From an uncultured Geobacteraceae bacterium (GTDB taxonomy: Bacteria; Desulfobacterota; Desulfuromonadia; Geobacterales; Pseudopelobacteraceae), in assembly GCA_903845365.1 (NCBI GenBank), contig CAIMXI010000177.1, positions 1 through 33,801 on the forward strand: 33,801 nt of DNA, read 5' to 3'. The position numbers and the translations under genes are program-made. Below the pieces are notes generated by a model. It saw only the letters and a list, made by a program, of their open reading frames with translations. It was not told where the DNA came from and ran no database searches. Below are positions 2,993 to 7,737 of the stretch, piece by piece. The stretch's first letter is position 1, and each line of letters opens with the position of its first letter.

Positions 2993-4108
2993 CTACTCCA
3001 CCTTTGCCGCTTCAGTAATCTTCTCCATACCGGTTACAACTATGCGATCACCGTCTGACAGACCGGAAAGTATTTCGCATCTTTCACTCATCTCTCTTCC
3101 CACTTTGACCAGCCGTATATGCGCGATGTTCTCTTTGTCTACTGTCCAGACGGAAGTCAGTGCTCCTCGTTCAACAACCGCCTTTTTTGGCACGGAGATG
3201 CCATTCAGAGAAGAACCAAGAGTAATCGAGCCACGACCAAACATCCCGGATTTGAGACCGTTCTGATTTAACGGTATCTTGGCCACAAAGGTACGACTGG
3301 CCGGATCTGCGGTTGGCACAATCTCGGCAATTTTAGCAGCAAATGAGCTGCCAAACGCATCAACTGTTACCTGCAACGGCGTCCCAGGCTTCACTTTTGT
3401 TGCCAGGCTTTCCGGAAGAGCAAGCTCCAGCTGATAGCTTCCTTCATCTTCGATAGTCATGAGCGGCTGCCCCGGAAATACCGTGGCACCGAGATCTGCC
3501 GGTTTACTGGTTATTACTCCTGATATCGGGGCGTTGATTCGGGTATAGTCTGACATGGCGCTGGAAGCCTTAGCCCCTTCCTGCGCCTGTTTAAGTCTCG
3601 ATTCTGCACGGGCAACAGCTTGTGCGGCAACCTCCTTTTCGGTCTGCCTGATATCAAATTCCTGACGGCTGACCGCCTGTTCATTATAGAGGTTCTGATA
3701 GCGGTCAAAAGTTGAGTCAGCCAGTTTTTTGCGTGATTGCGCTTCGTCAACTCCGCGACGAGCCTCATCGATACCGGCAGTTGCCACAGATGCTGTGAAC
3801 TGGTTTTCCTGCGCATCAAGTTGCGCCAGCAGTTGTCCTTTTTTTACCCGATCCCCTTCACGGACGCGCAGCACGCTGATAGTTCCCGGAATACGGGTAG
3901 AAACCATGGCACTGGTGCGGGCACGTACGCTGCCAACGACATCAAGCAGTTCAGGAATGACTGTACTTTTGACTGTTTCCAGAGTCACCCCTTTGACCGT
4001 TACTACCGGTATATTTTCGGTTTTGCCAGCTTCATGCTTGTTTGAACAACCGGTACCGGCAAGGGCAACAGTCAACAGAGCCACAATATAAAAGCCAATT
4101 TTCCTCAT
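2993..4108 (-). CDS. RND efflux periplasmic adaptor (membrane fusion) lipoprotein
   Basis: Periplasmic adaptor linking the RND pump to the outer-membrane channel. It has 371 residues, usual for the HlyD/MFP family. The N-terminus is a lipoprotein signal with lipobox LAGTGC (Cys21), so the mature protein should be anchored to the inner membrane. Next come the biotinyl-lipoyl half motif (RIPGTISVLRVREGDRVKKGQLLAQLD), an alpha-helical hairpin rich in Ala, Glu and Gln (about residues 105-180), the second lipoyl half (APISGVITSKPADLGATVFPGQ) and beta-barrel plus membrane-proximal domains. Its ATG overlaps the TolC-like stop by 4 bp (ATGA), and the permease starts 3 bp after its own stop. The three genes therefore form one translationally coupled operon. 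Substrate cannot be read from the sequence. Confidence 0.93.
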   Translation of the reverse strand: MRKIGFYIVALLTVALAGTGCSNKHEAGKTENIPVVTVKGVTLETVKSTVIPELLDVVGSVRARTSAMVSTRIPGTISVLRVREGDRVKKGQLLAQLDAQENQFTASVATAGIDEARRGVDEAQSRKKLADSTFDRYQNLYNEQAVSRQEFDIRQTEKEVAAQAVARAESRLKQAQEGAKASSAMSDYTRINAPISGVITSKPADLGATVFPGQPLMTIEDEGSYQLELALPESLATKVKPGTPLQVTVDAFGSSFAAKIAEIVPTADPASRTFVAKIPLNQNGLKSGMFGRGSITLGSSLNGISVPKKAVVERGALTSVWTVDKENIAHIRLVKVGREMSERCEILSGLSDGDRIVVTGMEKITEAAKVE

Positions 4109-5445
4109 TTCAGCATCTCCTTCACAAATGTTCCCGTCATATAATAGACTCTTCCACCGGCCAGCGCATAGCCTGCCCGGGTCTCCACCAGATTTGCCCG
4201 CGCCTGGTTGAGAGCGGTCTGGGCATCAAGCAGCTCTACCATGGTTGCCAGAGAATTTTCGTACCGTTTGGTGAGAAGCCGGACTGTTTCCTCGGCATCT
4301 TGTACTACGTTTCCGGCAATTTCCAGATGTTTGCCTGCTTCTGTGCGCCGGATATAACTCTCTTTAAGTTGGTATCTGATCTCTTTTGCTGTCGATTCCA
4401 GAATCTCGCGGGCGGCTGACTGTCCGGAGAGTGCCCGCCGTCGTTCGCTGTTGGTGCGAAATCCGTCAAATATCTGCCATTTAAGAGAGATCCCTGCACT
4501 CCAGGCTTCATTATCCGAGGTAAATGGAGCATCTTTGGCGTTCAACTGATATGAGGCAAAGGCACCCACCGTCGGTAAGTACTCACTCTGTGCGAGCCTG
4601 AGGGCCGCGTCAGACTTTTCGATATCGGTATGAGACTGTTTGATTTCAACCCGATTCAGAAGAGCTTCGTTGATAATCTGGTCACTCATGTCAGGAACTG
4701 CGATGCTGTCCAGCACCCCTGATACTTCACAGGTTTTGTCTTCAGGCAGTCCGATCAACCGTGTCAGTCTCATCTGCGCCAGTGTCAGGTCATTACGTGC
4801 GGTGATCAACTGTTGTTCAACCGTGGCAAAATGTGTCCGGGAGCGTAGTTCATCCGATTTAAGACCGATACCGGTTGATGTTCTTACAGTTGCCAGACGC
4901 ATATTCTCGCGGGCATTGGCAAGGGCTTTATCAGCGGCATCTAACCAGGCGATAGCCTTTTGCACTTCAAGATAGCTCTGGAACACCTGGAAGGCAATGC
5001 CTTGACGGACAGTTTCGAGTTGCAATGCTGATTTTTGGAAATCTTTCACAGCCAACTCTTTCATTGGAGCAAGAGACGGAGCGAACAAAGGCTGCTGAAC
5101 TGACAGGGCGGTTTTGAAATCGTGTGCTGCAGAGGGGTTATTGAGGTTGCTGATCTGGAAATCGTTCTGGGTAAAACGTCCCTCGTCGAGCTTCATCATG
5201 AAGGTGTTAGTCGGCGAGTTTGACCCAATCAGGGTTTCTTCCAGTGAGACGGCAGGCAAGTAGCGCGAATTGGCACTCTGAATACCCTGAGAAGCCGCTT
5301 GCGAAGTAAATCTGGCCGCCTTAATCTGGTTGTTGCCCTCGAGAGCCATGCTGATAGCGTCTTTTATTGACAACTTCAGCGGTTCAGCACCGGCTGTTGC
5401 AACAGAAAACAGTAGAACTGCACTAAAAATCAGTAGACGAGTCAT
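4105..5445 (-). CDS. TolC family outer-membrane efflux protein
   Basis: Outer-membrane channel of the tripartite pump. It has 446 residues from the chosen start, with a signal peptide MTRLLIFSAVLLFSVATAGA and then two repeated OEP units of long amphipathic helices, as expected for a TolC-type trimer. The open frame extends 27 codons further upstream to 5526. I start at ATG 5443-5445 because it has a strong GGAGGGG site 6 bases upstream and opens directly on the signal peptide. The longer start would place the promoter inside the gene. It is first in the operon with adaptor and permease and overlaps the adaptor start by 4 bp. Confidence 0.9.
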   Translation of the reverse strand: MTRLLIFSAVLLFSVATAGAEPLKLSIKDAISMALEGNNQIKAARFTSQAASQGIQSANSRYLPAVSLEETLIGSNSPTNTFMMKLDEGRFTQNDFQISNLNNPSAAHDFKTALSVQQPLFAPSLAPMKELAVKDFQKSALQLETVRQGIAFQVFQSYLEVQKAIAWLDAADKALANARENMRLATVRTSTGIGLKSDELRSRTHFATVEQQLITARNDLTLAQMRLTRLIGLPEDKTCEVSGVLDSIAVPDMSDQIINEALLNRVEIKQSHTDIEKSDAALRLAQSEYLPTVGAFASYQLNAKDAPFTSDNEAWSAGISLKWQIFDGFRTNSERRRALSGQSAAREILESTAKEIRYQLKESYIRRTEAGKHLEIAGNVVQDAEETVRLLTKRYENSLATMVELLDAQTALNQARANLVETRAGYALAGGRVYYMTGTFVKEMLK

Positions 5446-5467
5446 ATCCCCTCCAATAATACTAATA

Positions 5468-5495
5468 ACTATATATATAAAAACTATTATGTCAA
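5468..5495 (-). promoter_or_regulatory. sigma70-type promoter of the efflux operon
   Basis: On the minus strand, TTGACA (5490-5495, perfect -35) is followed after 16 bp by TATAGT (5468-5473, 5 of 6 to the -10 consensus). The predicted transcript start near 5461 leaves a leader of about 16 bases before the ATG at 5445. The spacer is an AT-rich run. No repressor gene lies beside it in the window. Confidence 0.6.
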
Positions 5496-5552
5496 TAAAA
5501 ATCCGTCCATAGTTCGACTTTGTCACATTACGTCACGTAGTGACTGATTGAT

Positions 5553-5577
5553 GGTAGCCCGGCGTTTTAACGCCGGG
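5553..5577 (+). repeat. REP palindrome, left unit
   Basis: A GGTAG head (5553-5557) is followed by CCCGGCGTTTTAACGCCGGG (5558-5577), a perfect 20-bp palindrome. The layout (GTAG tetranucleotide on the 5' side of a GC-rich hairpin) is that of bacterial REP sequences. Confidence 0.7.
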
Positions 5578-5636
5578 ATCGAAGCAGAATAGTCTTTTCG
5601 TCACGTACGTGACGAATGATATTATGGCATTTGAAT

Positions 5637-5661
5637 CCGGGGAATGAATTCCCCGGCTACC
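5637..5661 (-). repeat. REP palindrome, right unit (inverted)
   Basis: On the minus strand, a GGTAG head (5657-5661) leads into a near-palindrome CCGGGGAATTCATTCCCCGG (5637-5656). Its stem sequence differs from the left unit while the head and flanking GATGGTAGCC are shared, so the two units are related but not recent copies. Confidence 0.7.
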
Positions 5662-5716
5662 ATCAGTCTGTCCCTACGGGACTAAAACGTAATGTGACAA
5701 AGTAGAAATAGGTCAT

Positions 5717-5762
5717 AAAAGAAAAACGCCCGCTGAGAAGCTGTCTCAAGTGGGCGGTTTAT
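5717..5762 (-). terminator. intrinsic terminator after the GspE/PilB-like gene
   Basis: On the minus strand an imperfect stem pairs CCGCCCACTTGAGA with TCTCAGCGGGCG around a short CAGCT loop and is followed by a T-rich run (GTTTTTCTTTT). It lies about 20 bp past the ATPase stop codon and just before the REP element. Confidence 0.75.
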
Positions 5763-5782
5763 AAGATTTTTCAGCTAAATTG

Positions 5783-7717
5783 CTATTTAATGCAGACTCG
5801 CCGGATTTCATGGATATCGGTAAGACCGCCAAATACCTTAAGAATTCCATCCTGTTTAAGAGTAGTCATACCGTCACGGGCGGTCTGCGCACGAATATCA
5901 TCCGCATCGGCGCGATGTTTTATAAGCGTTTTCAATTCGTTTGTACATTCAAGCACTTCATGGATACCGAGTCGGCCTTGATAGCCGCTTCTACCGCAAC
6001 TAGAGCATCCAATCGCCTTATACATGGCTATATTTTCTAAAGTTAGGCCGGTGATGGCAAATGCTTCACTGCCATATTCAGACGTCAACTCTTCGAATTC
6101 GGCTTCTGTGGGATAATAGCGCTCCTTACAATGCTTACAGAGTCGACGTCCAAGCCGCTGTGCCAGAATGCAGACGAGAGAATCTGAAAAGCTGTAAGGG
6201 TCAAGACCCATTTCGAGTAGACGGGTGATTGTTTCCGGCGCTGAATTTGTGTGAAGCGTGGAAAAAACAAGATGCCCTGTCAAAGACGCCTCAACCGCAG
6301 TACTGGCGGTTTCTTCGTCGCGCATCTCGCCGACCATTATGACATCGGGGTCAAGTCGGAGAAATGAGCGCAGTGCAGCGGCGAAGGTAAACCCGATGCG
6401 CGGATTCACCTGAACCTGACGCAAGCCTGCCTGGGTAATTTCTACCGGATCCTCTGCTGTCCAAATTTTGCGGTTGGGCTTATTTATCTTGGCAAGTCCG
6501 GAATGAAGGGTTGTAGTCTTGCCGGAACCTGTTGGCCCGACAACAAGAATAAGCCCATGTGGTCGTTCGAGCGATTCTTGAAAAACTCGCATATTTCTTT
6601 CAGTAAGTCCAAGATCACTAAAACTTAAAGGATCACCACTTGCGAGAATACGGATGACAACATCCTCAAGTCCGCCAACTGTCGGCATGGTTGCAACTCG
6701 AAGCTCCACATCGAGAGGACCGAATTTTTTGAAGTCTATCTTGCCATCCTGCGGTTTTCTACGTTCTGCAATATCAAGATCACCCATTATTTTGATACGC
6801 GAGGGAAGAGCAAATTTATATTTATACGGGATTTTTTGATAAACTGAACACTGACCATCAACTCGGATTCGAACTACAACATCATTTTTGCCAGGATACG
6901 GTTCGATATGAATATCAGAAGCCTTTTTCATACAGGCGTCGTAAACAATCTTGTTAACCAGCTTAACAATAACACTGTCTCTTTCAGTGACTTTCTTTGT
7001 CTCTTCCGTTATATCCGGCTCTTCTCCATCCAATGATTTGCTAAGTAGATCGACAATACTGCTAGGCCCCATATCAAAACTTACTTCTTCAGCAGAATCA
7101 GTCTTGCCGGCAATATCAACAGCATAGAGTCGTTTAAGAGAGTTGTCGATGCAGGTTTCGGTAGTGATAACAGAAATTATTTTTAACCGGATACTGTCTT
7201 CCAATTCACGAAGGTCATGCGCTTTAAGCGGATTAACCATTGCCAGGGTGAGCGTGTTACCTATTTTTGAAATTGGGATAATCCGCTGCTTTTGAGCATA
7301 GACTTTACTGATATAACTGGAAAGTTCCTGAGGGAGTTCCTTGAAGTTGATCTGTATGTACGGCATGTCATGCTGACTGGCAACTGCTTTGGCCAAACCA
7401 TCTTCATCGATATATTTTAATTGTAAAGCAGCTCTTCCAATAGGGATACTGTCTCGCTTGCTCAGATCCAAAGCGTTGTCCAGTTTTTCCTGATCAATAA
7501 GCCCCATGGCAATCAGAACATCACCAAGCTTGCGACGTTTATCCTTCTGGTCGAGAAAACTGCTGAGATCACTCTCGTGTATATGGCCGAGTTTGCACAG
7601 TAACTGACCAACCTGCTGAGATGGAAAAAGTTTCTGCAAATCCAGCGCTTCATTCAACTGTTCTTGAGTGATCAGATCATGCTCAACAAGCAATTCACCA
7701 ACTCTTTTGACAACCAT
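5783..7717 (-). CDS. GspE/PilB-family secretion or type IV pilus ATPase
   Basis: Cytoplasmic hexameric ATPase that powers pilus or pseudopilus assembly in type II secretion/type IV pilus machines. In the 647-residue reading there are two tandem N-terminal MshE-type repeats (about 8-60 and 67-125; VGELLVEHDLI and LGDVLIAMGLI), Walker A GPTGSGKT (397-404), the Asp box, Walker B around DPDVIMVGEMRD (459-470), a His box LTGHLVFSTLHTN, and the zinc-binding CxxC pairs Cys530/533 and Cys574/577. I prefer the ATG at 7715-7717 over the one at 7726: GGGAG lies 10 bases before the former but only 1 base before the latter. Two unrecognised envelope proteins lie immediately upstream. No pilin, secretin or GspF/PilC gene is nearby, so the machine it serves is unknown. 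Confidence 0.9.
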   Translation of the reverse strand: MVVKRVGELLVEHDLITQEQLNEALDLQKLFPSQQVGQLLCKLGHIHESDLSSFLDQKDKRRKLGDVLIAMGLIDQEKLDNALDLSKRDSIPIGRAALQLKYIDEDGLAKAVASQHDMPYIQINFKELPQELSSYISKVYAQKQRIIPISKIGNTLTLAMVNPLKAHDLRELEDSIRLKIISVITTETCIDNSLKRLYAVDIAGKTDSAEEVSFDMGPSSIVDLLSKSLDGEEPDITEETKKVTERDSVIVKLVNKIVYDACMKKASDIHIEPYPGKNDVVVRIRVDGQCSVYQKIPYKYKFALPSRIKIMGDLDIAERRKPQDGKIDFKKFGPLDVELRVATMPTVGGLEDVVIRILASGDPLSFSDLGLTERNMRVFQESLERPHGLILVVGPTGSGKTTTLHSGLAKINKPNRKIWTAEDPVEITQAGLRQVQVNPRIGFTFAAALRSFLRLDPDVIMVGEMRDEETASTAVEASLTGHLVFSTLHTNSAPETITRLLEMGLDPYSFSDSLVCILAQRLGRRLCKHCKERYYPTEAEFEELTSEYGSEAFAITGLTLENIAMYKAIGCSSCGRSGYQGRLGIHEVLECTNELKTLIKHRADADDIRAQTARDGMTTLKQDGILKVFGGLTDIHEIRRVCIK

Positions 7718-7737
7718 AAAACGCATGCTCCCGCAAC

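Follow-up and report, generated by a model that had tools for sequence, protein, structure and literature searches.

A 195-bp element with IS701-type ends around an inverted pair of REPs in an uncultured Geobacterales bacterium

The insertion site and the parts of the element

The window, by which we mean the whole stretch of 33,801 nucleotides analyzed here, carries a short repeat inserted between a gene for a TolC-like outer membrane efflux protein (positions 4105–5445, minus strand) and one for a GspE/PilB-like ATPase (5783–7726, minus strand), both named by reading their translations. A consensus scan places a promoter-like site for the efflux operon, TTGACA-16-TATAGT, at 5468–5495 on the minus strand (11 of 12 consensus matches); its first base, 5495, lies 17 bp from the end of the element. 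The first-pass annotation of this DNA had set the element between a terminator and the efflux promoter. The promoter half of that placement agrees with our scan; a terminator scan of the element's surroundings found none, and inspection by eye yields one candidate, a minus-strand imperfect hairpin with TTTTTCTTTT after it (≈5716–5760). An open frame that starts at 5526, inside the element, relies on an alternative GTG, and the ATG at 5445 is the likelier start of the efflux gene. An empty-site comparison found the TolC gene beside a GspE-like gene in none of 29 loci from relatives. The element probably has no role at this site beyond its position upstream of the efflux promoter.

The element spans 195 bp (5513–5707) and is flanked on both sides by a 4-bp duplication, ATAG (5509–5512 and 5708–5711). 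It had first been drawn as a 187-bp element at 5517–5703, with boundaries slightly short, since the inverted repeat runs on for four bases with one mismatch (TTCG.../...AGAA) and ATAG lies outside these. The 17-bp perfect inverted ends that had been described are present at 5517–5533 and 5687–5703, as are the motifs GATGGTAGCC and GGCTACCATC shared by the two arms. The left terminal inverted repeat, TTCGACTTTGTCACATTA (5513–5530, plus strand), is an IS701-type end with one mismatch, identical in 17 of 18 bases to an end of an intact IS701 element in another genome of the genus (G038); the right one is TTCTACTTTGTCACATTA (5690–5707, minus strand). In short form, the IS701-type termini that bound the element read TTCTACTTTGTCAC.

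Between these ends, two hairpins described at first pass, GTCAC-GTA-GTGAC (5532–5544) and GTCCC-TAC-GGGAC (5670–5682), are both present and both show covariation. They enclose two REPs. REP 1 (5554–5577, plus strand) consists of a GTAG head, nearly invariant over 28 copies of the core, and the hairpin CCCGGCGTT-TT-AACGCCGGG; REP 2 (5637–5660), delineated by core alignment and covariation, is inverted, with the hairpin CCGGGGAAT-GA-ATTCCCCGG and its GTAG head on the minus strand. The 20-bp palindrome noted earlier, TTCGTCACGTACGTGACGAA, is perfect and central (5597–5616). As single-stranded DNA, the element folds with z = −11.5, and none of 200 shuffles is equally stable. The element is one mobile repeat packed in another, with IS701-type ends outside and, inside, a REP pair associated with a second, unrelated transposase.

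Copies, target-site duplications and IS701-type ends

A search of the element's own genome (G000; 5.5 Mb, 511 contigs) recovered six complete copies and one nearly complete copy. The six complete copies occupy mutually unrelated sites, which bears out the reading of the feature as a repeated mobile element, as opposed to a single occurrence within a conserved untranslated region. Five of the six are flanked by exact 4-bp duplications (ATAG, TTAA, GTAG, TTAG, and CTAA), and the sixth by CTAT/CTAC, which agree in three of four bases. None of the six overlaps an open frame of at least 120 codons, save for 20 bp of the alternative start at the window copy, so the unit is short, noncoding, multicopy, and intergenic. 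Further pieces adjoin other repeats or the ends of contigs; these are not all separate sites, because those at C370:34, C480, and C66 have one flank in common. Two copies (L018 in G000:C60 and L012 in G000:C222:1589) are cut short by a different palindromic repeat, TTCCCACGCTGGAGCGTGGGAACGAT, which takes the place of part of the element.

The same end is found in two longer elements. In the own genome, IS701 is represented only by a fragment at a contig end (C469), where the end stands beside a frame that matches DDE_5 and the NCBIfam IS701 model (NF033540; 203 bits against a cut-off of 150). The complete element in G038 measures 1533 bp, has the same ends and a TTAA duplication, and contains a long frame assigned by reading; all 18 bases of TTCTACTTTGTCACATTA are common to the MITE and one of its ends. 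The first guess for the outer family, IS5, came from the YTAR target and was dropped when the transposase matched IS701. Among named genomes, the 17-base end occurs in at least 117 stretches from many phyla, and four larger units among those matches encode IS701 transposases that score above the cut-off. In 40 pairs of such ends less than 400 bp apart, the 4-bp duplication is exact in 24, always with a central TA (24/24), differs at one base in 4, and at two or more in 12, the count of 24 being taken over all pairs, misses included, where an earlier listing of end pairs had kept only those with at most one mismatch. With ends of the IS701 family and 4-bp duplications of the NTAR type, the unit is therefore built like an IS701-type MITE, and, judged from these sequence features, an IS701 (DDE) transposase is the most likely agent of its movement.

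Other arrangements of these ends were also observed. The own genome contains a 253-bp MITE (G000:C234:197–449; L049) with the same IS701-type ends, a CTAA duplication, and an unrelated interior. A 2.8-kb IS701-ended unit from Limisphaerales (L094:3220–6036), with a TTAG duplication, may carry passengers, since its transposase is accompanied by further frames of 135 and 130 aa. A further type of IS701-ended MITE, with AACCCCCCTAACCCCCCTT-rich hairpins, is found in Geobacterales and Desulfocapsa (G042:C648, G040:C17, L067, and L128).

The REP core, its Y1 gene and its recurrence inside other ends

The interior of the element, here the core, comprises the two inverted GTAG-headed REPs that flank the central palindrome. 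Core matches at E ≤ 1e-10 occur in 15 of 76 genomes of the family. Most family matches stop close to the inner border of the terminal repeats (query ≈16–170 of 195), and among the matches listed, only those from the own genome, G028, and G019 span the ends. Contig C315 of the own genome harbors a gene for a Y1 transposase (54082–54576) with a core on each side and no IS701 ends. Orthologs flanked by the core on both sides are found in G034 (86% identity), G028 (83%), and G024 (72%), the cores of G034 and G024 again lacking IS701 ends, so that every genome with at least 72% identity, the own one included, has the gene between the same repeats (4/4). In G014 (71%), the cores are diverged and partial, and nine other Y1 loci examined gave no core at E ≤ 1. 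The nhmmer model used for these loci, and for collecting the cores aligned below, combines both cores of C315 with that of the window, and matches at these three cores follow by construction. Counting the Y1 gene at ≥71% identity, a cut chosen post hoc, all five gene-bearing genomes have the core, which is present in 10 of 39 genomes (P = 4e-4); at E ≤ 1e-10, the corresponding figure is six of nine. Of the ten core-bearing genomes of the same genus, five lack a close (≥71%) Y1 gene.

The Y1 protein matches PF01797 and NF033573 (IS200/IS605) as well as solved IS200-type transposases, and E. coli TnpA-REP is absent from the six solved chains that it matches at E ≤ 0.01; we call it REP-associated because of its flanks, the protein itself looking IS200-like. 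The search for a REP-associated transposase gene proposed at first pass found a candidate in the own genome, and with their conserved GTAG heads and this gene bounded by the same repeats, the GGTAG-headed palindromes of that annotation are REPs. Its suggestion that a Y1 enzyme acts on the element holds in part: the Y1 gene with the same REPs exists, and the terminal repeats are IS701-family ends, outside the Y1 system. In G028, one of the two Y1-flanking cores has IS701 ends, with TTAA and TTAG outside; this copy (G028:C86:148–342) lies directly upstream of the Y1 gene, and the locus is a possible birthplace of the MITE. On C315, CTTTGTCAC, between the start of the Y1 gene and the core from ≈54581, resembles an IS701 end and may be a chance match or a decayed end.

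To gauge conservation of the fold, we aligned 28 of 34 nonredundant core matches, dropping six as near-duplicates or truncated and widening one row (L237) by a few bases. T25, A26, and G27 and their counterparts C144, T145, and A146 are invariant in the 28 cores, and the GTAG and CTAC heads are invariant or nearly so, adjoining a hairpin in each of the two inverted units as in REPs and BIMEs. Pairing holds in 94.7% of cells across the 36 proposed pairs, of which 14 have changed on both sides; within the first hairpin, a single position of the stem shows A-T, G-C, and C-G. The covariation score of 0.288 exceeds that of every shuffle (mean 0.110) and of every slid version (≤0.094), although the fold scored is that of the window copy, a choice that gives it an advantage over slid versions in the fraction of cells paired. 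The paired stem changes noticed in the two arms at first pass are therefore genuine compensatory changes. Elements derived from IS200/IS605 that keep both ends and lack tnpA carry the guide tetramer of both end hairpins on the same strand. The two GTAG heads of the present element lie on opposite strands, as do those of BIMEs and REPINs, unlike IS605 ends.

A related core fills a different MITE in G129, where 77 core matches (both strands counted) were obtained and the core lies inside a MITE of ≈30 copies. In 17 of 21 core loci examined, 18 of them drawn from 20 stretches of one search and three from another, GTTGTCCGGTTTGG is exact at both ends and preceded by CAGC; in the other four, it is absent or diverged. 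This MITE measures 178 to 235 bp end-to-end (end pairs plus one base on each side) and has the ends CAGCGTTGTCCGGTTTGG and 9-bp duplications, read by eye in its flanks (for example, ATATCTGCT and ACTTGAAAT). Its partner is an IS of ≈1335 bp with similar ends, 9-bp duplications in all three copies read and a transposase of the IS4 family (235 bits, cut-off 115). The G129 core has GTCCC and GCCCC arms, whereas both arms of the window core are of the GTCNC kind, a difference that suggests separate captures. In the one G129 core cluster examined for a Y1 gene flanked by cores, none was present, and the frame there reads as a DNA methylase. Geobacter argillaceus (G089, also sampled as L077) has 67 core matches, some with IS701-type ends.

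Beyond Geobacterales, the interiors of IS701-ended MITEs often hold REPs. CGTC-type pairs (e.g. CGTCATCCCCGCGAAAGCGGGGATCCA) are found within IS701-type ends in Magnetococcales; Desulfobulbaceae and KSB1 have single or TGTC forms, and two Gammaproteobacteria (L061 and L153) and Syntrophus (L068) have GTAG-type pairs. Three Magnetococcales genomes contain 194 (none for the reversed control), 56, and no exact copies of the CGTC motif, respectively. Around 138 exact ends, a REP-like hairpin lies within 200 bp on the inside of 24 and on the outside of 6, counts that are nonindependent, with several ends per element and several loci per genome, and that include chance hairpins admitted by the GTAG rule (e.g. 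L088, L124, and L155). Many MITEs in this set, the Achromatium ones among them, lack a convincing REP. In Magnetococcales HA3dbin1, tandem units that each combine a REP pair with one IS701-type end (L145:7180–7400) are arranged as if amplifying in tandem. The packing of REP pairs between the ends of DDE transposons, seen for the Geobacterales BIME family in IS701- and IS4-type ends and for other REPs in IS701-type ends of other phyla, may represent a recurrent route of REP spread, to which we give a little less than even odds. For CGTC-type REPs, to which the accessible parts of PMC3733652 and PMC8266576 assign no partner enzyme, such packaging, if recurrent, would supply a double-strand route of transposition.

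Origin of the element and relation to known systems

We consider the feature, with a probability of roughly 0.87, to be a nonautonomous IS701-type MITE that carries as cargo a BIME, in which two GTAG-headed REPs of opposite orientation surround a palindrome. In this model, a full element would provide, in trans, a DDE transposase of the IS701 family that recognizes the TTCTACTTTGTCACATTA ends, and the 195-bp unit would insert at NTAR tetramers, which would become the 4-bp direct repeats. The REPs would belong to the type on which a single-strand (HuH, Y1) transposase works, and copies of the same core bound the gene for such an enzyme elsewhere in the genome; that enzyme would cut the REPs and act on the folded hairpins, which would be why the stems change in pairs. 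The two layers would have come together when IS701 ends captured a BIME or when a BIME entered a MITE. The second order, a Y1-mediated jump of the BIME into a pre-existing IS701 MITE, is compatible with the model and seems to us possible, if rather doubtful. IS701 MITEs with other interiors in the own genome, such as that on C234, speak for it; the G028 arrangement, an IS701-ended copy upstream of the Y1 gene and a bare core in relatives, fits either order; and against it, 17 to 18 bp of end in common with the IS precede the hairpins, with no trace of an older MITE interior. A partial search of the loci examined revealed no MITE with the same subterminal sequence that lacks the BIME.

Three other explanations were weighed. 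Were the whole 195-bp unit REPIN-like and moved by the Y1 (HuH) enzyme alone, with the terminal repeats as part of its folded ends, the core around the Y1 gene, the nearly invariant GTAG heads, and the strong single-strand fold would all be expected; yet the cores beside the Y1 gene, like those of most relatives, stop close to the inner border of the terminal repeats, and the ends themselves are IS701 ends accompanied by 4-bp duplications. We know of no target duplications made by the Y1/IS200 route, and this explanation is very unlikely. That the element is simply the described Chunjie MITE of Geobacter uraniireducens is highly improbable: a homologous core does fill the G129 MITE, whose 178 to 235 bp equal the size range of Chunjie in the accessible part of PMC10969869, so that the two are probably the same MITE, but the ends, the 9-bp duplications, and the IS4-family partner of the G129 MITE all differ from those of the window element, as do the core arms, making it a cousin by content on another transposon. 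A conserved regulatory RNA or UTR element of the efflux operon, an option raised at first pass, has the strong fold and the nearby promoter-like site to recommend it and is barely credible for a sequence that recurs beside unrelated genes and lies upstream of the promoter, hence outside the efflux transcript; a search of 5400–5800 gave no Rfam match above the gathering score, and of the first-pass argument for RNA, only foldability remains.

Taken as an IS701-type MITE with BIME cargo, the element invites comparison with four known systems. It shares the terminal inverted repeats and 4-bp NTAR duplications of the IS701 family (NF033540) and differs in having no transposase gene and REPs in place of the interior. 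With the REP, BIME, and REPIN systems and their Y1 enzymes, as far as described in the accessible parts of PMC3733652, PMC8266576, and PMC3116915, it has in common inverted GTAG-headed pairs that also occur beside a Y1 gene; unlike them, its REPs are wrapped in DDE-transposon ends with a target duplication, and the Y1 protein is IS200-like. Y1 enzymes cut REPs in vitro, and the mechanism of REP spread is unsettled according to the sections available of PMC3733652 and PMC8266576. Chunjie (G. uraniireducens Rf4; Chen et al. 2008, via the accessible part of PMC10969869) is likewise a MITE of ≈200 bp from the same order, mostly intergenic and, as judged through G129, with a homologous BIME core; it has other terminal repeats, 9-bp rather than 4-bp duplications, and an IS4-family rather than an IS701 partner, differences that also rest on the probable identity with the G129 MITE. 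On this comparison, the published Chunjie MITE would have a BIME as its interior.

A fourth parallel is offered by the REP dimers within long palindromes of Anabaena variabilis and Halothiobacillus neapolitanus (PMC3733652), where REP pairs are likewise nested in a larger inverted repeat; in the accessible part of that paper, the palindromes are read as targets, and no transposon family or duplications are given. A literature search over titles and the openings of abstracts, with subscription papers mostly out of reach, returned no description of REPs between IS701 ends. Both kinds of component are known, and what stands out is the nesting of a REP pair within IS701 ends and the return of this layout in ends of another type: placed between the ends of a DDE transposon, REPs could ride an ordinary cut-and-paste system.
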